From a virus, in IMG/VR virus record IMGVR_UViG_3300036944_000508, positions 1-64,000 of that record: 64,000 nucleotides of DNA; one strand, 5' to 3'. Positions 1,973 to 58,727 of the stretch are shown in pieces. Under the pieces are notes generated by a model. The model was not told the origin of the DNA and searched no databases. It saw nothing but the letters and a program-made list of their open reading frames with translations. Each line of letters begins with the position of its first letter. Positions within the stretch are counted from its first letter, which is position 1. The position numbers were made by a program, and so were the translations under genes.

Positions 1973-3307
1973 TCATCCGAATAAAACATGCACACTGACA
2001 TTCAGCGTGTTCGGTATAATCTGTTGCTCTTGTTTGGTGTAGAGAAAGTCCAGACGTCCATCGTTGTTGACATCCCACATCTCAACACCTGACCATGTAG
2101 AATCCCATGGTGCTCGGAAGGTCTCATCTACTTTAAAGGTCTTACCATCATTGATCAATATCTTCGTGTCAGGCATGTATCCAGTTGACACTATGTCCAG
2201 CAATCCATCGCGATTCACATCGGTCACGTGGAGTTTGCTGTTCCACCGCTGCTCGCTGATGACAAACGTCTCAGTCTTACCATAAACTCCATTAGTCTGC
2301 CCAAAGACATAAACGGTAGTTCCACGGTAGAAAGGTTGCTCGGCAGTAGTTGACATCACGATTTCCCGTTTCGCATCACCGTTAAGGTCGGCGATCGAGA
2401 TATCCGTAACAACACGTCCAGGAATACTCAGAGTTTGCGTAGCACTATACTGCCCACCGTTATACCGAAGGATAATGCTGTCGACCTTATCACCACCGAG
2501 AACTAATTCGGATACTCCGTCAGCGTCTAAGTCGGCGAACTCTGCGGCAGAATACTTAGATGCATCCAACCCATTCGCGAAAAGGTCATCAAGTCTCGTG
2601 AAGATACCGCGACCATCGTTTACCAGAAAATACGGTTTCGTCATCGTAGGTTTCCATGCGAGGTTACCGACATAAATGTCAACATCACCATCGTTGTCTA
2701 TATCAGCAATCGCCGTAGAGTGCGTAAACCCCTTCGTGGTTGGAATATTGGTACTCTTATCAATGAACCCACCACTACCGTTGCCGAACAATAACTTGTT
2801 CTGCCCACCACCAAAGTTTCCTGCATCATATCCTGCATCGCCAATGAATACATCCTTATACCCATCGCGATTAAAGTCTGCAATCTCAATAGTATCTGCT
2901 GGCATGGAAGTCGAAACTACGCTGCTTTTCTTAGTGGCAAATATAGTTGAACTGTTGTTCGTCAGACTGTATGCAAACTCTTCACCATACACATCAGGTG
3001 CTGCTACATTACTAGGAAAGTATGACTTCAATACTGATAGATGATTACCTACCACATAGAATGACTCTATAGAATGTTCAAAGGTATACTTACCATTGAC
3101 ATTAGTGTATGGTATAGTGATGTTAATACCATCAATCTTTTGTGGTGCTGAGAATAATGCGGGACCTGCAACTGGTGGAGTTACCACTGGAGGTGTAGAA
3201 GGTGCTGGAGTAAATGGTGGCACCGTTATGATAGGAGTACTATCACTGCTGCTACCACCACATGCAGTGAGTAGCAGTAGCACTAAAATGGGTGAAAGTT
3301 TTTTCAC
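1973..3307 (-). CDS. Lipoprotein with FG-GAP/VCBS beta-propeller repeats
   Basis: 444 residues. It starts with MKKLSPILVLLLLTACGGSS, a signal peptide ending in a lipobox (LTAC) for diacylglyceryl attachment. A Pro/Thr-rich linker follows, then at least six calcium-binding blade motifs of the DxNxDGxxD type (DFNRDGYKD, DIDNDGDVD, DLDADGVSE, DLNGDAKRE, DVNRDGLLD, DVNNDGRLD). This is the layout of FG-GAP/VCBS beta-propellers, which bind surface ligands. Translation starts at GTG, overlapping the stop of the small membrane gene (GTGA), with GAGGAA upstream. Last gene of an early operon; a surface-exposed lipoprotein made early would suit superinfection exclusion, but that is inference. Confidence 0.85.
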   Translation of the reverse strand: MKKLSPILVLLLLTACGGSSSDSTPIITVPPFTPAPSTPPVVTPPVAGPALFSAPQKIDGINITIPYTNVNGKYTFEHSIESFYVVGNHLSVLKSYFPSNVAAPDVYGEEFAYSLTNNSSTIFATKKSSVVSTSMPADTIEIADFNRDGYKDVFIGDAGYDAGNFGGGQNKLLFGNGSGGFIDKSTNIPTTKGFTHSTAIADIDNDGDVDIYVGNLAWKPTMTKPYFLVNDGRGIFTRLDDLFANGLDASKYSAAEFADLDADGVSELVLGGDKVDSIILRYNGGQYSATQTLSIPGRVVTDISIADLNGDAKREIVMSTTAEQPFYRGTTVYVFGQTNGVYGKTETFVISEQRWNSKLHVTDVNRDGLLDIVSTGYMPDTKILINDGKTFKVDETFRAPWDSTWSGVEMWDVNNDGRLDFLYTKQEQQIIPNTLNVSVHVLFG

Positions 3308-6403: not shown

Positions 6404-7411
6404 TCAGAGTTTAAACATACCTGCTTCACCTTTGTGCGGTCCACTGACTCCTTTGAAGGTCATCGATCCTACATTTTTTTCTACACCAGTATCCTTGTGC
6501 GTTCCAGTAATATAAGATACTGTTCCATCACCTACCTTGGCACTTAGATTTTTAAACTTTGAGAGATGTTGTTCTACATGTTCTGGTGGATCATAGATTA
6601 CTGGAGTGGCATTACCAGTTTTGTTGTTCACCTTAGCATGGATTACAGTATGAGGAATGTGTGTTTTCGGTGCAGCATGATGTCGAATAAAGTCGCGTAG
6701 TTCTGCATCTGATTTCTTTGCCAGTGCATCTGCATGCATTTGGGCGAATTGTGTGCGCATGACATGCGCTGCTTCTTCGGCAGATTTGTGTTTTTCTGGA
6801 TTGTTTGTTTTATCTGCCTTCCAGTTTGTATGACGTGCTTTCAAACTACCATCATATCCCATGTTTTCCATGTTCGATTTGTGTTTGTCAAACAGTTGAA
6901 GCATGTTTCCATGTATACCACTGTGATGTTCCAAATCTTTCAGTCCAGGGTTCTTTAGATTGGGTTTTCCAGCACCATACTTAGCAGATATACCATGGAA
7001 TCCACCCTTGTGTGACATAATAAGATCTGCATTTGCATTTAGATCCTTGACTCCAGTGGTTTTCTCATGATCACCTGCCTTCTTAAGTGTATCAGCATTG
7101 GATGTCCAGTGCACATTGGTAATCTTGTGTGGAAATGACTTCTTAAATTCCTCCGCAGATTGCTTCGCATGACGTTCGATCTCAGCATATGCAGCAGGAG
7201 GCATACGCTCCTTCAGTTTGTCATGCACCTGTTCAGCAGTACCACTGTGCAATGGATTCTTGGAATAACTACGATGATGTTCAGGTAGTGTTCCCTTTGG
7301 ATGAAGATGCTTCGCTAGTAACAGTTCGAACATCTTACCCTTGTCATCATTCTTGACACTTTTGGTTTCTGCGACTTCAGTTATATACTGATTAAAACTC
7401 TTTATGGACAT
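6404..7411 (-). CDS. Putative packaged protein with SAK (PD-(D/E)XK-like) motif
   Basis: 335 residues, starting MSIKSFNQYITEVAE at the ATG with GGAG eight bases upstream. The leader resembles the capsid-targeting sequence of T4 internal proteins (MKTYQEFIAEA) and has an ITE site like those cut by the T4 prohead protease. The middle has NADLIMSHKGGFHGISAKYG, where D...SAK could be a PD-(D/E)XK nuclease core; the protein is unusually rich in His and Lys, as in DNA-binding internal head proteins. A similar SAK motif occurs in the next gene. Function is inferred. Confidence 0.5.
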   Translation of the reverse strand: MSIKSFNQYITEVAETKSVKNDDKGKMFELLLAKHLHPKGTLPEHHRSYSKNPLHSGTAEQVHDKLKERMPPAAYAEIERHAKQSAEEFKKSFPHKITNVHWTSNADTLKKAGDHEKTTGVKDLNANADLIMSHKGGFHGISAKYGAGKPNLKNPGLKDLEHHSGIHGNMLQLFDKHKSNMENMGYDGSLKARHTNWKADKTNNPEKHKSAEEAAHVMRTQFAQMHADALAKKSDAELRDFIRHHAAPKTHIPHTVIHAKVNNKTGNATPVIYDPPEHVEQHLSKFKNLSAKVGDGTVSYITGTHKDTGVEKNVGSMTFKGVSGPHKGEAGMFKL

Positions 7412-7452
7412 GTGATTTACTCCGGAACAATTTGTTACCATTTATTAATACC

Positions 7453-7481
7453 AATATACTATAAAATAGCGAAAAAGTCAA
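7453..7481 (-). promoter_or_regulatory. Early-type promoter TTGACT-17-TATATT
   Basis: TTGACT (7476-7481) and TATATT (7453-7458) with 17-bp spacing, upstream of the gene at 6404-7411. Confidence 0.68.
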
Positions 7482-8753
7482 TTATTTTTTGAGAATGAAT
7501 CCAATTTTATTTCCACCAGGATTGGCAGCATTAGAATGGTATTCAAAGATGAAATTGCTGTCCTTGAATCCCTTGAGATCATACTTCAGCGTAGTTGCTG
7601 ACAGATTGACATACAATTGTTCGATGTTATTAGCACGCACGATGTCAGTCAGAAAGTCAGTATTCTTTTTGGTTGCATTCACCTCAGTAACCAATGCATA
7701 TGCCATGGGAGATAGGATGGTGCCATTTCTCTTGCTGGTCGGAATTTTCCATATCTTTTCAAAAGATGTCAGTGGTACTGTTCGACCGATCTTGTCATAG
7801 AATTCCTTGGTCAGCAGCGTATGTGCCTCCTTTGGATCCTTGTATTGCTTCAACCATTTCTCGATGTCATCCGCAGTATACATCAGTGGTTTACCGATGA
7901 GTTTACCAACCATCGTATACAGTGGTGAGTTCATTGCCTTTGCTGCCTTGACAATGCCTTCAGTGCCAGAGTTGTTGACGACTGCACCGATGAAGTCATG
8001 CACCTTCTTGTCATTGACATCAGTGAATGTTCTGCTGCCTATCATGTTCCATACAGATGAGATTGATGGTGCAGCACCACCACCTGACTTTGCAGAAACA
8101 CCGATTTTCAGTTTATTGCTATACACACCATAGTAGTCAACCAGTGGTTCATTACTGCGTGCTGGGAACTCAATTGATGTCACATCACTGTCATAGTTGT
8201 TCAGGAACCACCATCCACCTGATACCTCACCGAAGTCCTTGGCAATGATAGCGAGATCTTTCGCCGATATATCCTTGGTGGCAGTATTGAGTACCGAGTT
8301 GGTGGTCTTACTCTTCTCAAGAAATACCTTGAGGAATTCTTTGATGTGTGGAGCGACCAATGTGCAAGCATCAATGGCAGCATTTGCTGTCTTGAGGTAG
8401 TCTCGCTTGGTAATAGTTTTACCCCCGAGACCTAGTCCATCAGGAGATAGCGACTTGTTGGCAATTGTTTTGACATTGGTAGGATCAGTTGTGCTTCTGA
8501 TTCCTGGTTTCTGCATCATGTCAAACTTGATGCGTGCCTTGTATTTCTTACCTGCTACCTCATAATCTATAACAGGTTTGGAATCATATGCATCAGCAGA
8601 TAGGTATGTAATCTTTTGACCTTTTGGTAGATTACCAGTTACCTTGGTTTGACTGATCAGATCATAGGTGTCCGCAGCATCCTTGACAAAGGTGTCAACA
8701 TCACCATTGCCCTTGAAATACTTTTCCCATGCTGCTTTACCTGTAGTACCCAT
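7482..8753 (-). CDS. Hypothetical protein with SAK motif (423 aa)
   Basis: Starts MGTTGKAAWEKYFKGNGDVD. Around residues 215-235 it has VDYYGVYSNKLKIGVSAKSG followed by GGAAPS, a D...(V)SAK arrangement like that in the adjacent 335-residue protein and compatible with a PD-(D/E)XK nuclease fold. The rest is mixed alpha/beta with no recognised domain. The promoter of the next gene abuts its stop codon. A degenerate late-promoter-like AATAAATA occurs about 20 bases upstream of the start. Nuclease activity is a hypothesis. Confidence 0.6.
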   Translation of the reverse strand: MGTTGKAAWEKYFKGNGDVDTFVKDAADTYDLISQTKVTGNLPKGQKITYLSADAYDSKPVIDYEVAGKKYKARIKFDMMQKPGIRSTTDPTNVKTIANKSLSPDGLGLGGKTITKRDYLKTANAAIDACTLVAPHIKEFLKVFLEKSKTTNSVLNTATKDISAKDLAIIAKDFGEVSGGWWFLNNYDSDVTSIEFPARSNEPLVDYYGVYSNKLKIGVSAKSGGGAAPSISSVWNMIGSRTFTDVNDKKVHDFIGAVVNNSGTEGIVKAAKAMNSPLYTMVGKLIGKPLMYTADDIEKWLKQYKDPKEAHTLLTKEFYDKIGRTVPLTSFEKIWKIPTSKRNGTILSPMAYALVTEVNATKKNTDFLTDIVRANNIEQLYVNLSATTLKYDLKGFKDSNFIFEYHSNAANPGGNKIGFILKK

Positions 8754-8788: not shown

Positions 8789-9778
8789 TCAGTGCCTTCT
8801 CAACAATGCAGGATCGAACATGTTTTGCCACTGATCAATCACAACACCACGATGTTGTATGAGTGCTTGCATTAATCCATCCCAATCAACGAATTCTAGT
8901 CTATTCACAATGAGTTGTTGGACTTCCTCAGATGGCACAGCATAATCAGGTGCGAGTATGCACACCAGCATCTTCAGTCGCATCATCATGGTGTATGCAT
9001 CAGCAAAGTCAGATGTCAGATGACCAGCAGCAACCAACTCGTCTATTGCCAGTGTGAGTTGTGGGTTGATGCCAATCTGTGTTTCCAACTGCAATGTGTG
9101 AATGATGAATATCATGTCCATCAATCCACCAGACAACAATTTCACATCTAACACACCTTCTGCTGCGCTACGCTGGACAGCAACATCCTCGCGTCTTAAT
9201 GCTATACGATAGCGTAGATTCTCAGCATTACGTTGTGCGAGCAAAATGTCACGGATGACGGTATCAACATGTGTTCTTGCATCTGATGAACCAAATACTA
9301 CACGGGATCGACCATATTGCGCAGTAATCGCGACGCACGCAATTTCTCGATAATATTGATCAAAACCTTCCACCGATGTGCAGAATCTATCGTTTGCATC
9401 CCATGGTTGAAATCCAATTACAGTTTCATACACCGCATCCAGAGCAGCAATTACCTGTTTTCCCAACTGATTGAAGTATTGCGTTGCGACCAGACTTTGT
9501 GGTCCATCAGACTCTGCTAGAGGATTACCCATAAACAGTGGAACAATGTCCAAGTCTGACTCATGTGCCATCGCCTGACCGCCCAGACTACCCAGCGCAA
9601 CAATAACTAACTCACAACCTGCAATCTTACCATGTGTCTGTTCAAATTCAGTAACCGCAGCAGTTGTCAGTGTCACTAGTGTTTCCTCCGCCAAATGTGC
9701 GTAGGATTGTGCGATTTTTAGGACATCGATGTTGCCTTCGATCAACTGTTCCCTCAGGGAAATCTGTTGATCATTCAT
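8789..9778 (-). CDS. GlnE-like adenylyltransferase (single catalytic module)
   Basis: 329 residues. It matches one of the two halves of glutamine synthetase adenylyltransferase (GlnE, about 950 residues). The nucleotidyltransferase signature ALGSLGG...SDLDIV has G63-S64 and the metal-binding D75/D77; FCTSVEGFDQYYRE corresponds to the conserved LVxSLxAFxxYYRE block; and DVKLLSGGLMDMIFIIHTLQ (D211, GG217-218, D221) corresponds to the DxKxGxGGxxDIEF block. The third acidic site, usually in a DxRLRP motif, reads IGFQP here and may be lost. It could alter host glutamine synthetase activity, or modify another target. Overlaps the upstream small gene by eight bases. Confidence 0.75.
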   Translation of the reverse strand: MNDQQISLREQLIEGNIDVLKIAQSYAHLAEETLVTLTTAAVTEFEQTHGKIAGCELVIVALGSLGGQAMAHESDLDIVPLFMGNPLAESDGPQSLVATQYFNQLGKQVIAALDAVYETVIGFQPWDANDRFCTSVEGFDQYYREIACVAITAQYGRSRVVFGSSDARTHVDTVIRDILLAQRNAENLRYRIALRREDVAVQRSAAEGVLDVKLLSGGLMDMIFIIHTLQLETQIGINPQLTLAIDELVAAGHLTSDFADAYTMMMRLKMLVCILAPDYAVPSEEVQQLIVNRLEFVDWDGLMQALIQHRGVVIDQWQNMFDPALLRRH

Positions 9779-9929
9779 TCTTTAGTGCCTTCTCTGCTAT
9801 ATTTGCACAGGTGTATCCATGACCATGACCATGCGAGTGTCCGAACTTCTCGATCTTTCTCAGTGCATCCTCGTAGACCTGCAGTCTATTAAGACGTTCG
9901 GTCAGTTGCTTTGCCTGCGTCTCATTCAT
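9771..9929 (-). CDS. Small His-rich protein (52 aa)
   Basis: MNETQAKQLTERLNRLQVYE then a charged helix, HSHGHGHG and YTCANIAEKALKNE. The GGAG upstream is 17 bases from this ATG but eight bases from a TTG at 9938, so the true start may be TTG three codons earlier. The His/Gly run could bind metal. It overlaps the GlnE-like gene. Confidence 0.6.
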   Translation of the reverse strand: MNETQAKQLTERLNRLQVYEDALRKIEKFGHSHGHGHGYTCANIAEKALKNE

Positions 9930-9934
9930 GTCAA

Positions 9935-10069
9935 TCAAAAGTGATACTCCACCCAATAGTGTGCTGTTTTGCCACTAGACCATGTTACCTTGCTGCCTCG
10001 ATATCGCTTATACGGAATCAGAGGTGATTCAGTTGGTAGCGGGAGTTTCTTCCACTCTTTCTCAGACAT
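9935..10069 (-). CDS. Small basic protein (44 aa)
   Basis: MSEKEWKKLPLPTESPLIPY followed by KRYRGSKVTWSSGKTAHYWV. ATG at 10069 overlaps the upstream stop (TAATG), with GGAG before it. Predicted beta-rich, basic. No family recognised. Confidence 0.62.
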   Translation of the reverse strand: MSEKEWKKLPLPTESPLIPYKRYRGSKVTWSSGKTAHYWVEYHF

Positions 10070-10564: not shown

Positions 10565-10593
10565 ATTATACCTGATATTCATTCAAATGTCAA
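10565..10593 (-). promoter_or_regulatory. Early promoter, GCTTGACA family
   Basis: TTGACA (10588-10593), 17 bp, TATAAT (10565-10570). The stop codon of the peroxiredoxin gene (TGA, 10590-10592) lies inside the -35 box. It drives the operon containing the GlnE-like gene. Confidence 0.82.
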
Positions 10594-11135
10594 GCTTTAT
10601 TCTTCAACCACTCTAGAATGTTCTGTGGTGATGTTTCACCATATGGATCATCCTCTGCATCATCAGTCATTCCTGGTTCGATAAACCACTGTTCAATGCG
10701 ACCATTGTCAACGATGACTGCATACCGCCATGAACGGTTGCCAAATCCAAGATTGTCTTTGCTTACCAGCATGCCCATCTTCTCAGTGAAGGCACCAGAA
10801 CCATCAGGAATGACCTTGACATTCTCCACATTCTGATCCTTCGCCCAGCAGTTCATTACGAATGCGTCGTTGACTGAGATACAGTAGATCTCATCAATAC
10901 CTTCATCATAAAACTCTAGATGCAGTTTCTCGAAGTCAGGCAGTTGGTAGGTTGAGCAGGTGGGTGTGAATGCACCTGGAAGTGAGAACAGGACTACTCG
11001 CTTATTTGCAAAGTAATCGAAACTAGTCCGTTCCTGCCAACGATAGGGATTTGGACCCTCAATGGAGTCATCGCGAACGCGAGTCTTAAATACGACATTG
11101 GGAACAATGTCAGGTTGCACTTTCCAATTTTCCAT
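10590..11135 (-). CDS. Peroxiredoxin (Prx5/AhpE-like)
   Basis: 181 residues, start at ATG 11135 with GAGGAG upstream. The thioredoxin fold carries LPGAFTPTCS, the peroxidatic cysteine motif (PxxxTxxC), and a distal NRSWRYAVIVDNG strand; a second candidate cysteine is in FVMNCWAKDQ. This corresponds to Prx5-type thiol peroxidases that reduce H2O2 and alkyl peroxides in the cytoplasm. A phage copy may protect against oxidative stress during infection, together with the Dps-like protein at 51219. Reductant unknown; a phage glutaredoxin is present at 35944. Confidence 0.86.
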   Translation of the reverse strand: MENWKVQPDIVPNVVFKTRVRDDSIEGPNPYRWQERTSFDYFANKRVVLFSLPGAFTPTCSTYQLPDFEKLHLEFYDEGIDEIYCISVNDAFVMNCWAKDQNVENVKVIPDGSGAFTEKMGMLVSKDNLGFGNRSWRYAVIVDNGRIEQWFIEPGMTDDAEDDPYGETSPQNILEWLKNKA

Positions 11136-11139
11136 GTTA

Positions 11140-11304
11140 TTACTCCTCAATTAGTGGGATTGTTGTTGCTTTCGTTTCCCAGATTTCTTCGCCATCTCTC
11201 ATACAAATGAAAGACTTTTCTTCAATCTTCATGATAATACCACCATCTTGACGATGATAGTAGCGTCGCTCTTCAACGCGAATCAAATTCAATTTCTCAG
11301 ACAT
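11140..11304 (-). CDS. Hypothetical protein (54 aa)
   Basis: MSEKLNLIRVEERRYYHRQD and a beta-hairpin segment (GGIIMKIEEKSFICMRDGEE). GAGGAA precedes the ATG at 11304; the longer frame overlaps the upstream gene and is rejected. Unknown function. Confidence 0.66.
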   Translation of the reverse strand: MSEKLNLIRVEERRYYHRQDGGIIMKIEEKSFICMRDGEEIWETKATTIPLIEE

Positions 11305-13734: not shown

Positions 13735-13781
13735 CAAACTATAATTCCACTATACCTCGAAATGTGATAAAAGTCAAGCCC
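13735..13781. repeat. 47-bp direct repeat, copy 2
   Basis: Identical to 12960-13006; contains the promoter of the methyltransferase gene. Confidence 0.9.
13749..13777 (-). promoter_or_regulatory. Early promoter, GCTTGACT family
   Basis: TTGACT (13772-13777), 17 bp, TATAGT (13749-13754). The TGA stop of the upstream nucleotidyltransferase-like gene lies in the -35 box. It drives the methyltransferase. Confidence 0.84.
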
Positions 13782-14346
13782 TAATCGTCCAATCGCTCGT
13801 CCATCCACGATCTAAAAATTTATCTATTCTGCGCGATGATAACTCTTGTTTGTGTGCAGGATTCTTCACGAGTTTCTTCTGCTTAATGCAGTCATACTGC
13901 GCACGAGAGATAAACAACTGCTGCGTTGCCATGTCAAAGTATGGCATGCAATGGATGAAGTCGAACGTCTCGCGATGTGCCTTGCATGTGCGAGTGATAA
14001 CCTGCAGTTTATTCTTGAACGTTATTGCATTGGCAGTAACCAACTTGCCTTGCACCTTTACTTCTGCCATGTACCCAGGAGTCGCATCTTTGACTACATT
14101 CAGAGTCGGAGTATCACTCATTACAAATGATTCGAACCGATCAGCAGTATAAACATCCTTGAGATACACATCCCAGTCGTTTGTGATTGCACCATTGAAT
14201 AACGATGCAAAACACCCACCAGTCAGAATGGAATCCTTAAAATATGGATAGGTGTCGACAGGCAGATCGGATAAGAGTTCGCGAAACTTACTCTTTACCA
14301 TATCTCTGACCAACATAATGTTAGTACGTTCGTCATCATCAAACAT
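13774..14346 (-). CDS. Putative nucleotidyltransferase (pol-beta superfamily)
   Basis: 190 residues. LTGGCFASLFNGAITNDWDV resembles the GG/S helix and DxD strand of pol-beta-type nucleotidyltransferases (GGxxxS then NDWDVY), and a later TFDFIHCMPYFD can give a third acidic residue. The remainder is basic and ends with many Arg/Lys. The substrate could be tRNA, protein or small nucleotide. It follows a 67-residue gene closely, with a weak SD. Confidence 0.6.
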   Translation of the reverse strand: MFDDDERTNIMLVRDMVKSKFRELLSDLPVDTYPYFKDSILTGGCFASLFNGAITNDWDVYLKDVYTADRFESFVMSDTPTLNVVKDATPGYMAEVKVQGKLVTANAITFKNKLQVITRTCKAHRETFDFIHCMPYFDMATQQLFISRAQYDCIKQKKLVKNPAHKQELSSRRIDKFLDRGWTSDWTIRA

Positions 14347-21132: not shown

Positions 21133-21207
21133 TGGTAGCCCCGAGCGGTTTCGATCCGCCTTCTCGTCAGTGAAAGTGACGTGTCCTAGCCAGTAGACGA
21201 CGGGGCC
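21133..21207 (-). tRNA. tRNA-Glu (UUC)
   Basis: 75 nt with 7-bp acceptor (GGCCCCG/CGGGGCT, one G-U), anticodon loop CTTTCAC, T-loop TTCGAAA-type with CGGATCGAAACCG, and encoded CCA. Confidence 0.93.
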
Positions 21208-21213
21208 ATAAAT

Positions 21214-21894
21214 TTATGGTAACTGCGTATGAATGTCCAACCCAGTTACTTCTTTCCATTGTTTTTCAAAGTACTGCAATATTGTATCGATGTTCTTTTC
21301 TACTCTATCTAAATTTTTTATCAAATTTAAACGACTCATCGAATGTTGCTCGTTTAGAGTAATTTGCGACTTATCAAAAAATTCTTCTGGTAAAGTTTCA
21401 AATGTTACCAATCGAGATGATTTAGGATAAAATCGCAAGAAAGATTCGAAAATAAACTCAACATTAGCGAATTCATTGTCATAAATTAGTATCTCCTTCG
21501 CTTCTTTCTCGACACCCTTCCAATGACCAAAATACTGAGCGAGCAGAATTGATAATATTATCTCTCTTGGATTTCTTATTAACGTGAAAATTTCATGAGA
21601 TGTTTTTGCTGCTTCAAACCATGCTCTTGCATCATGATATTGCACCAAATCGCGACCAAATATTTTCACAACAGCATCAGAGCGATTCATTTCCCCTAAT
21701 ACTGCATGCCAATTTCCGGATTCTCGAAAATCATTTAGAGTGCGAATCCTAGATAAAACATCCTTTTTATTTTCATCATAATTGCGAATATTATGAAACG
21801 CAAATGGTTCATTTACTTTTACTGGTCTTCTGCATGCTTGCATTGCCGCTGTGCTTCGAGTTCTTGGCATGCCATATATTATAACAGGTTTCAT
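21214..21894 (-). CDS. Sulfotransferase-like protein (226 aa)
   Basis: The N-terminal IIYGMPRTRSTAAMQAC has the PAPS 5'-phosphosulfate loop pattern of sulfotransferases (PRxxST), and FTLIRNPREIILS gives the 3'-phosphate site (RNPxE). Phages of marine bacteria often carry such genes, probably to modify cell-surface glycans or small molecules. Located inside the tRNA cluster, between tRNA-Glu and the GapR-like gene. No clear SD. A second sulfotransferase-like gene lies at 29625. Confidence 0.75.
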   Translation of the reverse strand: MKPVIIYGMPRTRSTAAMQACRRPVKVNEPFAFHNIRNYDENKKDVLSRIRTLNDFRESGNWHAVLGEMNRSDAVVKIFGRDLVQYHDARAWFEAAKTSHEIFTLIRNPREIILSILLAQYFGHWKGVEKEAKEILIYDNEFANVEFIFESFLRFYPKSSRLVTFETLPEEFFDKSQITLNEQHSMSRLNLIKNLDRVEKNIDTILQYFEKQWKEVTGLDIHTQLP

Positions 21895-21913
21895 GTAGTT
21901 ATTTATTTACTAT

Positions 21914-22150
21914 TCAGAGACCAATAGCAGTGCGATATGTCTCGAGAATCATATCTTCTTCCTGCCGAACATGCGCTTCCTTTTTGCGGAGACGAATAAT
22001 TTGGCGAGTTGCCTTGACATCGTAACCTTCGCTCTTAACATCAGCGTAAATTTGTTTACGGTCTAGTTTCTTGGCATCAATTTCTTGTTCAATGGTTTCG
22101 ATACGCTCAACCAACAAACGATACTTATCAATTGCAATAACATCAGTCAT
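21914..22150 (-). CDS. GapR-like DUF2312 protein
   Basis: 78 residues. IEQEIDAKKLDRKQIYADVK, then SEGYDVKATRQIIRLRKKEA and VRQEEDMILETYRTAIGL match the DUF2312/GapR pattern (a helical dimer that binds overtwisted AT-rich DNA ahead of replication forks and RNA polymerase in alphaproteobacteria). AAAGGA lies before the ATG. A phage copy might bind phage or host DNA as a nucleoid protein. It is the strongest host clue in the window. Confidence 0.85.
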   Translation of the reverse strand: MTDVIAIDKYRLLVERIETIEQEIDAKKLDRKQIYADVKSEGYDVKATRQIIRLRKKEAHVRQEEDMILETYRTAIGL

Positions 22151-22169
22151 AATATACTTCCTTTAAAAA

Positions 22170-22247
22170 TGGAGCGCCGAGTCGGATTCGAACCGACGAC
22201 TGTAAGGATTTGCAATCCTTTGCATTTGACCGCTCTGCCATCGGCGC
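22170..22247 (-). tRNA. tRNA-Cys (GCA)
   Basis: Acceptor GCGCCGA/TCGGCGC, anticodon loop TTGCAAA in a 5-bp stem, T-loop TTCGAAT, encoded CCA. Confidence 0.92.
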
Positions 22248-22250
22248 ATT

Positions 22251-22322
22251 TGGTACCAGCAGTAGGTAACGCTCCTACCAAACCAACCTTATGAGAGTCG
22301 GTCGTGCACTTACACTGCTGGC
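22251..22322 (-). tRNA. tRNA-Met-like (CAU), aberrant D and T loops
   Basis: 72 nt. Acceptor GCCAGCA/TGCTGGT pairs fully (one G-U) and CCA is encoded. Anticodon stem CGACT/GGTTG with loop CTCATAA gives CAU. The T-loop reads AGCGTTA in a perfect GTAGG/CCTAC stem, so TTC is absent, and the D arm is minimal (AAGT loop, no GG). It may be an odd or decayed tRNA. Confidence 0.6.
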
Positions 22323-22324
22323 AT

Positions 22325-22400
22325 TGGTGCGAATAACAGGAATTGAACCTGTGACCTTTCCCTTATCAGGGGAATGCTCTACCATCTGAGCTATATTCGC
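22325..22400 (-). tRNA. tRNA-Ile (GAU)
   Basis: Acceptor GCGAATA/TATTCGC, anticodon loop CTGATAA, T-loop TTCAATT, encoded CCA, 76 nt. Confidence 0.93.
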
Positions 22401-22404
22401 AAAT

Positions 22405-22480
22405 TGGTAGGAGCAGTGGGACTCGAACCCACACTGGAGGGATTTTAAGTCCCTTGTCTCTGCCATTGGACTATGCTCCC
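22405..22480 (-). tRNA. tRNA with UAA anticodon (Leu), class I shape
   Basis: Anticodon stem AGGGA/TCCCT with loop CTTAAAA (UAA). The variable loop is only about five nucleotides, whereas bacterial tRNA-Leu has a long variable arm. T-loop TTCGAGT and CCA are normal. Confidence 0.8.
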
Positions 22481-22481
22481 A

Positions 22482-22558
22482 TGGGGTGGAAGACGGGACT
22501 TGAACCCGCGACATTCGGTACCACAAACCGACGCTCTAACCAACTGAGCTACAACCAC
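22482..22558 (-). tRNA. tRNA-His (GUG), acceptor mismatches
   Basis: Anticodon loop TTGTGGT gives GUG; discriminator C then CCA. The acceptor GTGGTTG/CTTCCAC has two adjacent U-U mismatches (pairs 5-68 and 6-67). A G at position -1 (22559) can pair with C73. Confidence 0.85.
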
Positions 22559-22560
22559 CA

Positions 22561-22647
22561 TGGCGGAAGGTGTGGGAGTCGAACCCACTCAACCGTTTCT
22601 GGTTGACGCATTAGCAGTGCGTTGCATTACCGTCCTGCCCACCTTCC
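22561..22647 (-). tRNA. tRNA-Ser (GCU)
   Basis: Class II tRNA of 87 nt. Acceptor GGAAGGT/ACCTTCC, anticodon loop CTGCTAA, long variable arm GTCAACC...GGTTGA, T-loop TTCGACT, CCA. Its 5' part overlaps the small gene ending at 22611. Confidence 0.93.
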
Positions 22648-22784
22648 GCATATAATCTATTCCATCGATTTTTAGATCCAAAGAGTTTTGCTTTAGATAA
22701 TTCGATATCTCTTTCTAACATAACAATTTTGGCTGCCAATTTAGATTGCTCACCATCCATGTGTTTTGGTATCAAAAAGTTCAT
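22611..22784 (-). CDS. Small helical protein (57 aa) reading into tRNA-Ser
   Basis: MNFLIPKHMDGEQSKLAAKI then a Lys-rich helix (SKAKLFGSKNRWNRLYAEGG). AAAGGA seven bases before the ATG supports translation. The last 12 codons lie inside tRNA-Ser, so 5' processing of the tRNA would remove the stop codon from the mRNA. Unknown function. Confidence 0.6.
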   Translation of the reverse strand: MNFLIPKHMDGEQSKLAAKIVMLERDIELSKAKLFGSKNRWNRLYAEGGQDGNATHC

Positions 22785-22801
22785 AACAAATTCCTTTAAA
22801 A

Positions 22802-22877
22802 TGGTGGACACTCTGGGGTTCGAACCCAGGACCTACAGGTTAAAAGCCCGTTGCTCTACCTACTGAGCTAAGTGTCC
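22802..22877 (-). tRNA. tRNA-Lys (UUU)
   Basis: Acceptor GGACACT/AGTGTCC, anticodon loop CTTTTAA, T-loop TTCGAAC, CCA. Confidence 0.93.
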
Positions 22878-22883
22878 TAAACT

Positions 22884-22958
22884 TGGTAGACGAGGAGGGA
22901 CTCGAACCCCCAACCAAACCGTTATGAGCGGTCGGCTCTACCATTGAGCTACTCGTCT
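22884..22958 (-). tRNA. tRNA with CAU anticodon (Met elongator or Ile-lysidine)
   Basis: Acceptor AGACGAG/CTCGTCT fully paired, so not an initiator. Anticodon loop CTCATAA; T-loop TTCGAGT; CCA. Whether C34 is modified to lys2C (Ile AUA) cannot be told from sequence. Confidence 0.88.
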
Positions 22959-23139
22959 ATATGTAGACCCGAACGCGATCGGAATCTGCAGGAGCACCGA
23001 CTACTCGACGCTCTATGTAGTGACGATCGACGAACCGATCCGTCACGACTGCGGCACGTGCATCATCCTCAGATGCATACACGCCCAACAGTAACGAACC
23101 TTCGTAATCAAACTCAGCTAATAATGCAAAAACTTCCAT
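22957..23139 (-). CDS. Hypothetical protein (60 aa)
   Basis: MEVFALLAEFDYEGSLLLGV then YASEDDARAAVVTDRF, a small alpha/beta protein of the type with a beta-hairpin and ARxAA helix. AAAGGA lies before the ATG and promoter 23167-23195 upstream. Its TAG stop overlaps the first two bases of the next tRNA. Unknown function. Confidence 0.72.
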   Translation of the reverse strand: MEVFALLAEFDYEGSLLLGVYASEDDARAAVVTDRFVDRHYIERRVVGAPADSDRVRVYI

Positions 23140-23166
23140 AACAAATTCCTTTCAATCAATATTCTC

Positions 23167-23195
23167 ACTATACCGCGAAACGAAGAAATTGTCAA
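23167..23195 (-). promoter_or_regulatory. Early promoter, GCTTGACA family
   Basis: TTGACA (23190-23195), 17 bp, TATAGT (23167-23172). Restarts transcription inside the tRNA cluster just after the terminator 23205-23245. Confidence 0.84.
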
Positions 23196-23204
23196 GCCCT
23201 AAAA

Positions 23205-23245
23205 TAAAAAAAGTGCCAAGTTTTTTTCCTTGGCACTTTTTATTA
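23205..23245 (-). terminator. Strong stem-loop terminator inside tRNA cluster
   Basis: AAAAGTGCCAAG (23209-23220) and CTTGGCACTTTT (23229-23240) form a perfect 12-bp stem; U/A tracts on both sides make it usable in either direction. It splits the tRNA cluster into two transcription units. Confidence 0.9.
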
Positions 23246-23335
<90 letters not shown>

Positions 23336-23340
23336 TAATC

Positions 23341-23416
23341 TGGATGCCCTACCACGACTCGAACGTGGAACCTTCTGAATCAAAATCAGACGTGCTGCCA
23401 ATTGCACCATAGGGCA
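23341..23416 (-). tRNA. tRNA-Gln (UUG)
   Basis: Acceptor TGCCCTA/TAGGGCA, anticodon loop TTTTGAT, T-loop TTCGAGT, CCA. Confidence 0.92.
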
Positions 23417-23417
23417 C

Positions 23418-23492
23418 TGGTACAGGATGACGGGATTGAACCGCCGACCGCCTCGGTGTAAACGAGATGCTCTACCGCTGAGCTAATCCTGC
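23418..23492 (-). tRNA. tRNA-Val (UAC)
   Basis: Acceptor GCAGGAT/ATCCTGT, anticodon loop TTTACAC, T-loop TTCAATC, CCA. One base separates it from tRNA-Gln. Confidence 0.92.
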
Positions 23493-23495
23493 AAA

Positions 23496-23936
23496 TTAAT
23501 GTCTTACCACGTGATCAGCAGCATGTGTTGCTGCAAACGAGTTCGGTTTGATTACCGCATCAAGACCCGTAGTTCCCTTAACATACCCCAGTGCTTCTTT
23601 AACAGCAATGTTAGATTTATGCTTAGGATCTGGATTGATGTCAAGATGGATTTCTAGATGCCGTTTGCCAATTACATCAACAATTTCCGTTGCTGCTTCG
23701 ATGGCAAATCCTGCTTCGGTAATTAGACGTTGCCGTAAGTTACCAAAATCGCGCATCTCTACGTTTCTAGAGAATATTTTACCACCATGCTTAGAATCCA
23801 TGTGAAGAATAATAACAGTGGAATACTTAGCATACCACTCACCACTACGTTTCTTGAACCGTATTGAATCGGCACCGATATAAACAGATGATGTTTCACT
23901 TGAATTTAAAATTGCTTCTCGTGCTTCATCATACAT
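23496..23936 (-). CDS. RNase H-like protein (YkuK/DUF458 type)
   Basis: 146 residues. SVYIGADSIRFKKRSGEWYA then STVIILHMDSKHGGKIF resembles the YkuK-type (DUF458) RNase H-like fold: an acidic residue in the first strand (GADS), then LEIHLDINPDPKHKSN and a final Asp (HAADHV). Such proteins may be nucleases, but no activity is established. It follows a methyltransferase-like gene and lies within the tRNA cluster, where RNA processing would be a fitting role. Confidence 0.68.
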   Translation of the reverse strand: MYDEAREAILNSSETSSVYIGADSIRFKKRSGEWYAKYSTVIILHMDSKHGGKIFSRNVEMRDFGNLRQRLITEAGFAIEAATEIVDVIGKRHLEIHLDINPDPKHKSNIAVKEALGYVKGTTGLDAVIKPNSFAATHAADHVVRH

Positions 23937-23947
23937 ATGTCACTTTG

Positions 23948-24622
23948 TCAACTCCATGTTTTATCATAGTTAAACATATTTCTTTCGGAAATATGTTTCT
24001 TTATTTCTTTGAAATTTTCTATATCAGAATAATTTATCTGAGTTGGGAAATTATTAATATTTATTAATTTTGACCAGTCAGAAAAACTTTCCGAGTCAAA
24101 TTCCCTGTTATTTTCCACAACATATTTAATATACAATTTACTGGCAGGCCAGAACCATGTAAGAGTCGAATTGCATCTCTTGGCAATTTCTCTGGATCTC
24201 TCGATTATTTCTGCTGCTGATTCTTTCTCATAATGATCCATGAACAAACAATCACAAGTTATATTTTCTAGAGAATCTGCATCTTTACAGATAATTTGTA
24301 TCTTATCCAATGCAATCGGCGAGGTTTTCATGAGTATTTTGAATAGATCAATCATATCTTGATTCTTTTCATAAACTATAACTTCTGTCACTTCTGACTT
24401 CATCGCCAACAAAGTCTGGACGATACCCATTCCTAAACCAGTCGTAACACAAACTCCACTGGCATGTTCTATTTCGAAAAATTGTTCTCTCGCTTGTATC
24501 TCAGTTCTTGGATCAAGTGACATCCATTCTTTGCCATCATATTTTAAAGAAAACCCTCTAAGAGTATATGATAATTCTGCTTTACCAACTTCAACAGGAA
24601 AATATTTTATAGGAAGAAACAT
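23948..24622 (-). CDS. SAM methyltransferase-like (spermidine-synthase type fold)
   Basis: 224 residues. GVCVTTGLGMGIVQTLLAMK resembles the SAM-binding glycine loop and EVIVYEKNQDMIDLF the acidic strand binding the ribose; CDCLFMDHYE may be motif IV. Looks like phage methyltransferase/spermidine-synthase-fold proteins. Substrate unknown. Weak SD. Confidence 0.62.
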   Translation of the reverse strand: MFLPIKYFPVEVGKAELSYTLRGFSLKYDGKEWMSLDPRTEIQAREQFFEIEHASGVCVTTGLGMGIVQTLLAMKSEVTEVIVYEKNQDMIDLFKILMKTSPIALDKIQIICKDADSLENITCDCLFMDHYEKESAAEIIERSREIAKRCNSTLTWFWPASKLYIKYVVENNREFDSESFSDWSKLININNFPTQINYSDIENFKEIKKHISERNMFNYDKTWS

Positions 24623-24643
24623 TATTATTTACCTGTTTAAAAA

Positions 24644-24717
24644 TGGCGAAGGTGGGGAGAGTCGAACTCCCGCTTGCGGTTTTGGAGACCGCCGTGCTAC
24701 CGTAACACTTCACCGAC
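24644..24717 (-). tRNA. tRNA-Trp (CCA), acceptor mismatches
   Basis: Anticodon loop CTCCAAA in GCGGT/ACCGC stem; T-loop TTCGACT; encoded CCA. The acceptor GTCGGTG/CACCTTC has mismatches at pairs 2-71 and 3-70. Confidence 0.85.
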
Positions 24718-24741
24718 AAAATACTAGTACCATATTTCCCT

Positions 24742-25278
24742 TTAACTTAATGTGTACTCTATGATATCCCAACATTCATTCACAGTCTTTGGTTCACTAA
24801 ATGCGCACACCGATGGTTTTGTTTCGTCGGCAATAAACCTCGGTGTTTCTTGCGCGAAGGGTAGTTCTTTATAGATGTGAGTAATTACCTTTGTTGTTAG
24901 GCATTCTATTTTATGCAACGTTGTATAATGCATGCGATATTCTTGGTTCGGTTCCGTAATGAATGTGCAGCGTTCAATTAAGTTGATGTTTGATAATAAT
25001 ATCTCTTGCTGCGAGTCAGGAGCGCACTCCTTGCGTTCCACACGTAATGTAGATGTCGGGTCGGTGCCGTCTATTTCGTAAATGTAATTTTTTAACTTTC
25101 CCTTTAGAACTCTCGAGGTAAAACTAAATCTGTGTTCGTGTATATCTTCCACTAAAATTTTTGCTCTATCGGAATAAAAATGATATGATTGATTCTTACA
25201 AAATGGATACTTAACTACTCCGAGTCCCATATAATGCGGTATTCCGTTTAGTGCTCGTAATTGATCTATAGTAATCAT
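24742..25278 (-). CDS. Cupin-like hypothetical protein (178 aa)
   Basis: Starts MITIDQLRALNGIPHYMGLG. DIHEHRFSFTSRVLKGKLKN is reminiscent of a cupin H-x-H...G block, seen in some phage proteins; QEYRMHYTTLHKIE could be the second metal strand. No function known. Perfect late box TATAAATA lies 50 bases upstream. ATG at 25278 preferred over GTG at 25284; no SD. Confidence 0.55.
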   Translation of the reverse strand: MITIDQLRALNGIPHYMGLGVVKYPFCKNQSYHFYSDRAKILVEDIHEHRFSFTSRVLKGKLKNYIYEIDGTDPTSTLRVERKECAPDSQQEILLSNINLIERCTFITEPNQEYRMHYTTLHKIECLTTKVITHIYKELPFAQETPRFIADETKPSVCAFSEPKTVNECWDIIEYTLS

Positions 25279-25292
25279 ATCCACGTGTTTAT

Positions 25293-25348
25293 AGTCCTGG
25301 AATTTATAGTAGGTCTTATCGCATGCATATTTATAAACTTCCAGGACT
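25293..25348. repeat. Inverted repeat 3' of tRNA-Pro
   Basis: Left arm 25293-25308 and right arm 25332-25348 form a 16-bp stem with one bulge (AGTCCTGGAA pairs with TTCCAGGACT). It begins two bases after the tRNA-Pro CCA and encloses the TATAAATA box. Likely a processing or termination hairpin. Confidence 0.75.
25328..25335 (-). promoter_or_regulatory. T4-type late promoter TATAAATA
   Basis: Perfect TATAAATA (the T4 late consensus) 50 bases upstream of the ATG at 25278, inside the hairpin 25293-25348. Confidence 0.6.
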
Positions 25349-25350
25349 TT

Positions 25351-25427
<77 letters not shown>

Positions 25428-25436
25428 ACTATTTAA

Positions 25437-25631
25437 TTACTTCGAATCTGCTTCTGGAGCAGGTGCTTCAATCGCAGCAGCATCTAGAGGTGCTTCTGCC
25501 GCTTCTGCTGCAGCAAGTGCTTCATCTGCTGCTGGACCAGCGGCTTCTGATACTGATGGTGTATCTTCACTAGGAGCACACGCTGCGGTAAGTGCAATAA
25601 CTGCTGCTGCCATAAAAGTCTTGATATTCAT
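25437..25631 (-). CDS. Small Ala/Glu-rich lipoprotein (64 aa)
   Basis: MNIKTFMAAAVIALTAACAP is a signal peptide with lipobox LTAAC; the mature part is Ala/Glu/Pro-rich (AADEALAAAEAAEAPLDAAA). AAGGAA lies before the ATG at 25631. Unexpected within a tRNA cluster; could be a cell-envelope or exclusion protein. Function unknown. Confidence 0.75.
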   Translation of the reverse strand: MNIKTFMAAAVIALTAACAPSEDTPSVSEAAGPAADEALAAAEAAEAPLDAAAIEAPAPEADSK

Positions 25632-25655
25632 AATTAATTCCTTGGTTGTTAAAAA

Positions 25656-25737
25656 TGGAGCCCCAGACAGGATTCGAACCTGTATTTTCTTTCCAGTTAC
25701 CTTTATCTTCGTTCGTAGCGAAGGGGGATACTGAGGC
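25656..25737 (-). tRNA. tRNA-like element, ACG anticodon-type arm, no D arm
   Basis: 82 nt with fully paired acceptor (GCCTCAG/CTGGGGC), normal T arm ACAGG-TTCGAAT-CCTGT and encoded CCA. The only other stem is CTTCG-CTACGAA-CGAAG, whose loop would give ACG (Arg). There is no D arm (only TATCCCC before the stem) and an unpaired segment of about 23 nt follows. May be a D-armless tRNA or a tRNA mimic. Confidence 0.5.
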
Positions 25738-25739
25738 AT

Positions 25740-25813
25740 TGGAGCGGATAGTGAGACTCAAACTCACCTCTTTAGCTTGGAAGGCTAAGGCACAATCTCT
25801 ATACCATACCCGC
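25740..25813 (-). tRNA. tRNA-Gly (UCC)
   Basis: Acceptor GCGGGTA/TATCCGC, anticodon loop CTTCCAA, T-loop TTTGAGT, CCA. D-loop AGAGATT lacks the usual GG. Confidence 0.88.
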
Positions 25814-25832
25814 ATTAAACTTATTTATTTGT

Positions 25833-25923
25833 TACGGAACAGTCCCCGCTGCTCTGTATTACTGTTTGCTCAATGGGGTTTCACAGGGTCGACCCTATCT
25901 CTGTTCTATGCAAACAAACCGTA
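25833..25923 (-). ncRNA. Structured RNA 1 between tRNA-Gly and tRNA-Asp
   Basis: About 91 nt with no open frame on the minus strand. Closing helix TACGG (25833-25837) with CCGTA (25919-25923); next GAACAG (25837-25842) with CTGTTC (25901-25906); CCCC with GGGG (25844-25847 and 25875-25878); and palindrome AGGGTCGACCCT (25885-25896). TGTTTGC (25863-25869) can also pair with GCAAACA (25910-25916), giving a pseudoknot or switch. T4 has two stable non-tRNA RNAs (C and D) in its tRNA cluster, a precedent for such RNAs. Confidence 0.6.
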
Positions 25924-25928
25924 TTAAA

Positions 25929-26003
25929 TGGCGACCTTGAGGGATTATGATACCCCGACCTTCGCAGTGACAGTGCGACGCTCTTCCTCTGAGCTACAAG
26001 GCC
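25929..26003 (-). tRNA. tRNA-Asp (GUC), unusual T arm
   Basis: Acceptor GGCCTTG/CAAGGTC, anticodon loop CTGTCAC, CCA. The T arm is GGGGT/TCCCT with loop ATCATAA; the closing pair is T-T and T54 is missing. Confidence 0.85.
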
Positions 26004-26009
26004 TTAAAC

Positions 26010-26094
26010 TGGTGGGAAGGTGAGGTATCGATCCTCCCCCGAAAACGGATGAGATTTACAGTCTCACTGCCAGAGCCACTGACTTTACCTTCCC
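26010..26094 (-). tRNA. tRNA-Tyr (GUA)
   Basis: Class II tRNA of 85 nt with anticodon loop CTGTAAA, long variable arm and CCA. T-loop ATCGATA lacks T54. Confidence 0.9.
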
Positions 26095-26098
26095 GAAA

Positions 26099-26174
26099 TG
26101 GTGCTCCCGAACGGATTCGAACCGCTGACACGTGGTTCTTCAAACCACTGCTCTACCAACTGAGCTACAGGAGC
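26099..26174 (-). tRNA. tRNA-Phe (GAA)
   Basis: Acceptor GCTCCTG/CGGGAGC, anticodon loop TTGAAGA, T-loop TTCGAAT, CCA. Confidence 0.93.
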
Positions 26175-26181
26175 GTAATAG

Positions 26182-26258
26182 TGGTACCCGTGGAGAGACT
26201 CGAACTCCCAACATTCTGGACCTAAACCAGACGCCTCTGCCAATTGGACTACACGGGC
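26182..26258 (-). tRNA. tRNA with UAG anticodon (Leu), class I shape
   Basis: Anticodon stem TCTGG/CCAGA with loop TTTAGGT (UAG). The variable loop is short, unlike normal tRNA-Leu. The D arm (GTCCAATTGGCAGAGGC) resembles the UAA tRNA at 22405. Confidence 0.82.
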
Positions 26259-26270
26259 ATAAAAATGAGC

Positions 26271-26396
26271 GACCACCTGCAGTGTGCCTTGATCAATTAC
26301 GCTGCAGCGCCTGATCTTCCCAGATAGTCTTTACTGTTGCAACAGCAAGTGCTACCCTTTTCTCTTACCTTTCGGTGGGGTTCAGCAGAGGTGGTC
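26271..26396 (-). ncRNA. Structured RNA 2 between tRNA-Leu and tRNA-Ala
   Basis: About 126 nt, no open frame. The ends form GACCACCT (26271-26278) with AGGTGGTC (26389-26396), extended by CTGC with GCAG. Internal palindromes CGCTGCAGCG, TTGATCAA and CTGTTGCAACAG suggest further hairpins. The end-to-end closure suggests a discrete stable RNA like T4 RNA C/D. Confidence 0.6.
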
Positions 26397-26401
26397 TATA
26401 T

Positions 26402-26477
26402 TGGTGGAGAATAACGGGATCGAACCGTTCACCTTCTGCGTGCAAGGCAGACGCTCTACCGAATGAGCTAATTCCCC
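26402..26477 (-). tRNA. tRNA-Ala (UGC)
   Basis: Acceptor GGGGAAT/ATTCTCC, anticodon loop CTTGCAC, T-loop TTCGATC, CCA. Confidence 0.93.
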
Positions 26478-26485
26478 GAATCTAT

Positions 26486-26779
26486 AAAGCGAAGTGGGAG
26501 GATTCAGTTGTACCTCCATGACCCAGTCAATTACTATCTGTAATCTCGGTCAACGACTCGTTACTGGTTAAGAGGAGTACCACTCCCCGAGTCTACATTA
26601 TCCCCACTGACGAGGGGATTATTCAGTCACACTTCTTACGCCGACCGTCGCCAGCGATATATCGATGAATGTAATGGCTACTGAGGTGTCGACACGCTAC
26701 TGTCGGTAATTTCGCTCTTTACGTTCCTATCATTGCCCCAACCGCTTGGTCGCCACAGGAACTTCCATCACACTCAAAC
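26486..26779 (-). ncRNA. Structured RNA 3 (one or more) between tRNA-Ala and tRNA-Asn
   Basis: About 294 nt with no gene. Hairpins visible: GGAGG/CCTCC (26497-26517), ATTAC/GTAAT (26530-26544), GACTCG/CGAGTC (26555-26593) enclosing GGAGT/ACTCC, ATCCCC/GGGGAT (26600-26619), then CGATATATCG and GTGTCGACAC palindromes near 26660-26695. The density of GC stems in an AT-rich genome is unlike random spacer. It may hold two RNAs. Confidence 0.6.
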
Positions 26780-26854
26780 TGGCTCCCCAAGATGGGATCG
26801 AACCACCGACAAGGTGATTAACAGTCACCTGCTCTACCTCTGAGCTATTGGGGA
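26780..26854 (-). tRNA. tRNA-Asn (GUU)
   Basis: Acceptor TCCCCAA/TTGGGGA, anticodon loop CTGTTAA, T-loop TTCGATC, CCA. Confidence 0.93.
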
Positions 26855-26930
26855 ATAAACTTGCCGTTTTGTTTTCACTGCATAATCCGAGGGTATATAC
26901 AGCGGTTCAGCAGACGGTACTGCTTAGAAA

Positions 26931-27041
<111 letters not shown>

Positions 27042-27659: not shown

Positions 27660-28163
27660 TTAATCTCGCGGACGATATGGGTCATATTTCATACCCCACA
27701 ACCAACCTCCTGGCAATATGAAAGTCAGAGGGTCAACAAGGTGGCATTTACCGTTCGGTTCAACACACCATTTTCGACGTCTCATACTCGCTTTGATTGC
27801 CATGAGTCGACGAGTTTCCCAAGTATGCCTTCTAGCATACATCGGATTACCATCCCTGCGCCTAGTTCCTCGCATGGTTCGACTTATCGATGCTTTATGC
27901 TCTGGTGTTAAACCACCCCAGCAGGGATTCTTTTCACCAGTTAATGCTTCTGAAATCTTTTTGCGAGTCTCGGGGCTATGCCCCGAAGATTTTTTTCTGG
28001 TAACTTTATCAACAATTGTGAAACCTTTTCCGAGGACTTCTGCTTTGTCTCGGAGGATTTCTATCTTACTGTTTTGTAGCAAGAGTTCTCTTGGTTTTGG
28101 AACCTTGTTCGGATCGTTGACAATCCACAGTTCTGTTTTTGTTTTGAATAGAAAGAACTTCAT
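27660..28163 (-). CDS. NUMOD3-type homing-endonuclease-like protein
   Basis: 167 residues, very basic. HSPETRKKISEALTGEKNP and a second NGNPMYARRHTWETRR-like block are NUMOD3 DNA-binding repeats of phage homing endonucleases, followed by WCVEPNGKCHLVDPLTFILP. No GIY-YIG or HNH nuclease core is obvious, so it may be a degenerate or accessory homing protein. Overlaps the SDR gene (ATGA). Confidence 0.78.
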   Translation of the reverse strand: MKFFLFKTKTELWIVNDPNKVPKPRELLLQNSKIEILRDKAEVLGKGFTIVDKVTRKKSSGHSPETRKKISEALTGEKNPCWGGLTPEHKASISRTMRGTRRRDGNPMYARRHTWETRRLMAIKASMRRRKWCVEPNGKCHLVDPLTFILPGGWLWGMKYDPYRPRD

Positions 28164-58650: not shown

Positions 58651-58727
58651 TGGTGATGCCAGTAGGATTCGAACCTACGACCTAGAGCTTAGAAGGCTCT
58701 TGCTCTATCCAGCTGAGCTATGGCACC
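58651..58727 (-). tRNA. tRNA-Arg (UCU)
   Basis: Acceptor GGTGCCA/TGGCATC, anticodon loop CTTCTAA in AGAGC/GCTCT stem, T-loop TTCGAAT, CCA. Stands apart from the main cluster behind its own promoter, decoding AGA/AGG. Confidence 0.94.

Follow-up and report, generated by a model that had tools for sequence, protein, structure and literature searches.

The 64,000-nucleotide stretch of viral DNA analysed here (the window), taken from a virus record of 70.9 kb, belongs to a T4-like phage and encodes on its minus strand (8789..9778) a protein of 329 residues that is a member of the GlnE family by both sequence and fold. The gene was captured, as homology and tree show, from a Sphingorhabdus-like bacterium, and the catalytic site of its product is half dismantled: the DxD pair is retained and the third metal-binding Asp is gone. 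We tentatively favour, at somewhat less than an even chance, a repurposed and probably non-adenylylating GlnE domain that would bind glutamine synthetase, the target that we infer, and would block its inactivation during infection.

A GlnE domain among phage genes

In cellular GlnE the C-terminal domain inactivates glutamine synthetase by adenylylation, the N-terminal domain reverses this by removing AMP, and PII determines which of the two activities prevails (PMC12409994). The phage gene starts with ATG and specifies a stand-alone C-terminal (adenylyltransferase) domain. Its product was matched by the Pfam GlnE model PF03710 over residues 11-171 (E-value 5.5e-15; 55.9 bits at a cutoff of 24) and, weakly, by the GlnD/GlnE helical-domain model over residues 209-314. 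The NCBIfam model PRK14108 was matched at 2e-33 along profile positions 656-909 of 986, with a score far under the whole-protein cutoff, as is expected because only one domain is present. At the level of PDB sequences the two E. coli GlnE domains were recovered and no others, the adenylylation domain (3k7d) with an E-value of 3.5e-13. An AlphaFold model based on an alignment of 51 sequences (mean pLDDT 87.9) led to the same family: in Foldseek 3k7d came out on top (3.2e-13), followed by the deadenylylation domain 1v4a (5e-13), and the next match was found at 7e-4. An unrelated nucleotidyltransferase, which the earlier note had named as the outcome that would speak against its assignment, can be ruled out since the matches after GlnE are far weaker. 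For instance, the protein-AMPylating nucleotidyltransferases SidM/DrrA and MntA share the fold (weak Foldseek matches 6yx5, 7e-4, and 7bxo, 0.025), but show no sequence match, and the E-value for GlnE is a billion times better. The N-terminal domain of GlnE is ruled out as the counterpart as well (about 24% identity versus 52%), and the protein corresponds to residues 567-895 of the 895 in the host enzyme, which bears out the earlier suggestion that only one half-module is present.

The C-terminal GlnE domains of Sphingorhabdus and relatives (L119-L134) and of E. coli (3K7D) are homologous to the phage protein over all 329 residues (48-56% identity for the nearest), have the same predicted fold and share with it the GxLG, DxD and DxK..GG..D motifs. 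In comparison with these enzymes the phage copy stands alone, i.e. without the N-terminal deadenylylase and regulatory domains, and it lacks the third Asp, the RLR, R104, R108, G127, G130 and a six-residue loop. The profile, the fold and the GxLGG...SD[LI]D motif with its two metal-binding Asp are thus all found, whereas the third catalytic Asp of VDxRLRP and the two-domain layout of about 900 residues around a regulatory domain are not. Judged by these features, the phage protein is not a complete GlnE enzyme.

The surrounding genes, namely those for a T4-type DNA polymerase (53% identity to the cyanophage S-H38 enzyme), a DnaB-like helicase, the recombinase UvsX, a ribonucleotide reductase and a chitinase-like lysin, identify the window as T4-like phage DNA. 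Phage genes surround the GlnE gene and two further phage contigs carry copies, which rules out an assembly artefact or host contamination. These contigs (L001 and L004, both from IMG/VR) are closely related to the window phage (NrdA 89-91% identical), and their GlnE proteins are 69-70% identical to that of the window. In all three contigs the start of the gene overlaps by 8 nt with the end of an upstream gene that is different each time (in the window an ORF of 61 aa; 9771..9956, minus strand), an arrangement that suggests expression from an operon.

In L001 and L004 the gene belongs to a cassette in which it has an ATP-pyrophosphatase-like gene on one side and a subtilase gene on the other; it adjoins a 2OG-Fe(II) oxygenase gene and a sulfotransferase-like gene (recognised by eye and without a Pfam match). 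The window has its homologues of the latter two at 29.6-30.8 kb, and the GlnE gene is found apart, at 8.8 kb, outside the cassette. The cassette (L001:2620-6432; L004:7058-10203; window:29625-30847 and 39815-42415), which also contains GNAT genes, is exchangeable and differs in arrangement among related phages; its ATP-pyrophosphatase-like gene (SGGIDS motif) had no match in Pfam or the PDB. A further fifty related contigs, the longest of 172 kb, yielded no GlnE match with the same single-protein query that recovered the gene in both L001 and L004, and as most of these contigs are fragments this indicates rarity rather than strict absence. A scan with a wide alignment likewise returned no viral copies beyond the three. 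The rare occurrence, taken together with the differing genome position, points to a patchily distributed, moving cargo gene.

Several other features of the window were recorded. Directly downstream of the GlnE gene there are two ORFs of 345 and 423 aa (6404-8753) that match no Pfam or PHROG family significantly and lack homologues in four related phage contigs. A peroxiredoxin of phage family phrog_2281 is encoded at 10590-11150, and in two sphingomonads, too, a peroxiredoxin gene comes after the host glnE; a carry-over of that host pair is disfavoured, given the phage-family match and the presence of the gene in related phages that have no GlnE match. A 190-aa phrog_4400 protein (13774-14346) contains a stretch, TGGCFAS...NDWDVYL, that looks, by eye, like another nucleotidyltransferase motif. 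Further, there is an FG-GAP repeat protein of 444 aa (1973-3307; no PHROG match, no homologue in the relatives compared), a NUMOD3-containing ORF that is probably a homing endonuclease (27660-28163), and a set of 21 tRNA genes, one each for many amino acids (21133-27006 and 58651-58727).

Conserved and altered parts of the catalytic site

The signature motifs that had been read from the window sequence are present: GSLGG (residues 63-67; 9578..9592, minus strand), SDLDIV (residues 74-79), FCTSVEGFDQYYRE (residues 132-145) and DVKLLSGGLMDM (residues 211-222). The first is the nucleotidyltransferase glycine motif, which reads GRLGG in cells, R64 being replaced by Ser in all three phages. SDLD (residues 74-77; 9548..9559, minus strand) provides the first two catalytic Asp, D75 and D77, and is kept in the three phage copies, and so is, in the window, the conserved motif DVKLLSGGLMD where the helical bundle begins (residues 211-221; 9116..9148, minus strand). 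With the adenylyltransferase domain of GlnE as the top structural match and the DxD metal ligands in alignment, the assignment made in the earlier note was upheld at the level of the domain.

The situation is different for residues 117-130 (YETVIGFQPWDAND; 9389..9430, minus strand), the strand and turn that in cells carry YEvDtRLRPsGxxG: the window copy has lost the third catalytic Asp as well as the two Arg and the two Gly. The absence of the DxRLRP Asp, which had been noticed before, extends to the two phage relatives, position 120 being occupied by V in the window, by G or N in the two relatives and by Asp in 91 of 91 cellular C-domains. Such freedom to vary is expected if the side chain is irrelevant while its surroundings matter. 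The neighbouring RLR has become GFQ, two helix arginines (R104 and R108) have become Gln, and a six-residue loop ahead of the strand is deleted. On the alignment of the catalytic Asp residues, by which the earlier note had wanted its assignment to be judged, the outcome is thus split: two of the three align and the third is missing from every phage copy. The adenylylation of glutamine synthetase that had been proposed is, as it was worded, not borne out, given that the third Asp and the neighbouring arginines are gone in all three.

Among the 58 positions that are at least 95% conserved in the 91 cellular domains, 29 are kept in all three phages. The conserved residues that are retained throughout include G63, G66, S74, D75, D77, E118, D211, K213, G217, G218 and D221, and those lost throughout are D120, R122, L123, R124, R104, R108, G127 and G130, of which D120, R122, R124, R104 and R108 are (near-)invariant in the cellular domains. 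For positions conserved at 90%, 3 of 12 are kept within residues 115-135, as against 60 of 100 outside that stretch (Fisher p 0.03); for residues 98-163 the corresponding counts are 13 of 35 and 50 of 77 (p 0.008). The p values are only a rough guide because both regions were picked after inspection. At about ten positions, among them Q104, Q108, G122, F123, Q124, D130, R195, C273 and I274, the three phages have the same new residue. The AWxWEHxAL block of cellular GlnE (residues 147-155; 9314..9340, minus strand) is partly retained in L001 and L004 (AWPHEH) and lost in the window copy alone, which reads ACVAITAQY; a DNA alignment read by eye gave no clear shifted match that would indicate a compensated frameshift behind the ACVAIT stretch.

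Origin from sphingomonads and selection in phages

The best plasmid matches of the phage protein are sphingomonad GlnE sequences. In a scan of 84,980 genomes with the wide alignment, the nearest sixteen belonged to Sphingorhabdus and relatives, with 47-55% identity along the phage protein (a first scan with a narrow, phage-only alignment gave no matches), and the closest cellular relatives of the window protein are Sphingorhabdus C-domains, at 55-56% identity. Within the donor family, 192 of 200 sampled genomes had a match, which nearly always was the only one in its genome and sat in an open frame about 900 codons long; as none of the matches listed exceeded 56% identity, this sample gave no sign of a phage-like copy. 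The three phage proteins group together in the tree (SH-aLRT 100), as a clade nested within the Sphingorhabdus clade (99), where the exact sister is unsure in view of the quick tree and the unusual composition of the phage rows. The stem of the phage clade measures 0.75 changes per site, as against roughly 0.02-0.04 for neighbouring host tips, and it is on this long branch, after the capture, that the catalytic-site changes fall. From the identity of the donor, the phage host is presumably Sphingorhabdus.

The third-codon GC of the phage GlnE genes (0.37-0.39) resembles that of the phage polymerase and NrdA genes (0.36-0.41) and not that of two host genes (0.62-0.64), which implies that the gene has long resided in phages. 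Pairwise dN/dS among the three phage copies amounts to 0.19-0.32 over three methods, and the protein is therefore constrained and in use. With a host origin, a location among polymerase, helicase, recombinase and reductase genes in a phage genome, two more phage contigs that carry it, and retention under selection, the gene has the properties of a host-derived phage metabolic gene, albeit a truncated one with an altered catalytic site.

Possible roles in host nitrogen control

The reading that we favour starts from what homology, tree and alignment show: a T4-like lineage took the C-terminal adenylyltransferase domain of glnE as a stand-alone gene and left behind the parts for deadenylylation and regulation. 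Once captured, the domain lost the third catalytic Asp together with the neighbouring RLR and the two helix arginines; it retained its fold, its helical bundle and the GxLG...SDLD half of the site, and came under purifying selection. Presumably expressed from a phage operon, it would have lost the ability to pass AMP efficiently to glutamine synthetase, would still bind this enzyme, perhaps together with ATP, and would compete with the host GlnE; without a regulatory domain it would not respond to PII. Glutamine synthetase would thereby stay unadenylylated and active, and glutamine would remain available for phage nucleotide and protein synthesis. This reading is in line with the retention of precisely the domain that adenylylates glutamine synthetase in cells (PMC12409994), i.e. 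host residues 567-895 of 895 only, with the nesting and long stem in the tree, with a loss of D120, R122, R124, R104 and R108 that is concentrated at the third-Asp strand, and with the low dN/dS and the well-predicted GlnE fold. Nevertheless, the binding itself is something we infer, the altered hairpin lies near the expected entry of the target tyrosine, so that target binding may differ too, and the AWxWEH block is also gone from the window copy. Moreover, if the domain were dead, the conserved DxD would need another reason, for instance ATP binding.

One lost acid is no proof of inactivity either: enzymes of this fold usually coordinate two metals through three acids, yet RelA/SpoT synthetases function with one fewer and Tam41 with a single one (PMC11646218). 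The possibility that the protein is a still-active adenylyltransferase, using D75, D77 and perhaps E118 to inactivate glutamine synthetase without PII control, benefits from this, as it does from the retention of G63, G66, S74 and these three acids in all three phages and from the purifying selection on the DxD. We nonetheless consider it unlikely, since the third Asp (present in all 91 cellular domains), the RLR and two more arginines are gone from all three phages and since a cut in the glutamine supply would offer no obvious gain to a replicating phage. Somewhat less doubtful is a domain that has ceased to target glutamine synthetase and has been remodelled to bind or modify a different protein or metabolite of the host: the long stem and the roughly ten positions fixed to shared new residues suggest new constraints, and the neighbours in L001 and L004 (ATP-pyrophosphatase-like, 2OG-Fe(II) oxygenase and GNAT genes) are not clearly nitrogen genes. 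Yet nothing points to any other target, and in the window the GlnE gene lies outside that cassette. That a functionless captured gene is decaying, as its patchy occurrence (no match in 50 related contigs) and the alteration of half of the strongly conserved host positions might indicate, seems very improbable in view of the open frame in three diverged contigs, the phage-like third-codon GC, the 8-nt overlap with three different upstream genes, the good predicted fold and, above all, dN/dS values that largely refute it.

The earlier note knew of no described phage GlnE, which agrees with what we found: there was no match to the protein in PHROGs, none at 0.001 among the BFVD viral models, and no phage GlnE in the papers searched on phage and auxiliary-gene GlnE, one of which measures GlnE, there a gene of the host, in the course of infection. 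GlnE sequences do occur in other records filed as phage (MW462191, Acinetobacter MD-2021a, AGRM01000002 and Moraxella Mcat17), but in these four a full two-domain GlnE has bacterial genes around it or is found beyond the integrase end of a prophage, i.e. in host DNA. Further GlnE matches came from two short E. coli/Salmonella records and from the unannotated MT837598, whose frame has a cellular-type motif. The first of the four (L002; MW462191.1:10495-35157), filed as a bacteriophage, has its full-length glnE amid genes for cytochrome c maturation, HtrA and a sensor kinase, and looks bacterial.

Viral genes for PII (GlnB/GlnK) and amtB are known as auxiliary metabolic genes (PMC8115048), and like the phage GlnE gene they are host-derived and touch the same nitrogen-control cascade. 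However, these encode a sensor and a transporter, whereas the phage GlnE is a relative of the enzyme that modifies glutamine synthetase and thus concerns a different step. That the captured domain serves as a pseudo-adenylyltransferase, an inhibitor of its own parent pathway that holds the host glutamine synthetase active against nitrogen control, is a proposal that we put forward with slightly more reserve than the favoured reading set out above. If true, it would be, as far as the papers searched tell, the first phage protein at the adenylylation step of glutamine synthetase. This adenylylation is a classic case of metabolic control by covalent modification, and the synthesis of phage genomes relies on host nitrogen. 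The phage domain is small enough for direct testing, and a phage version of the glutamine synthetase-modifying domain with its third metal site apparently disabled would be another override of host nitrogen signalling.
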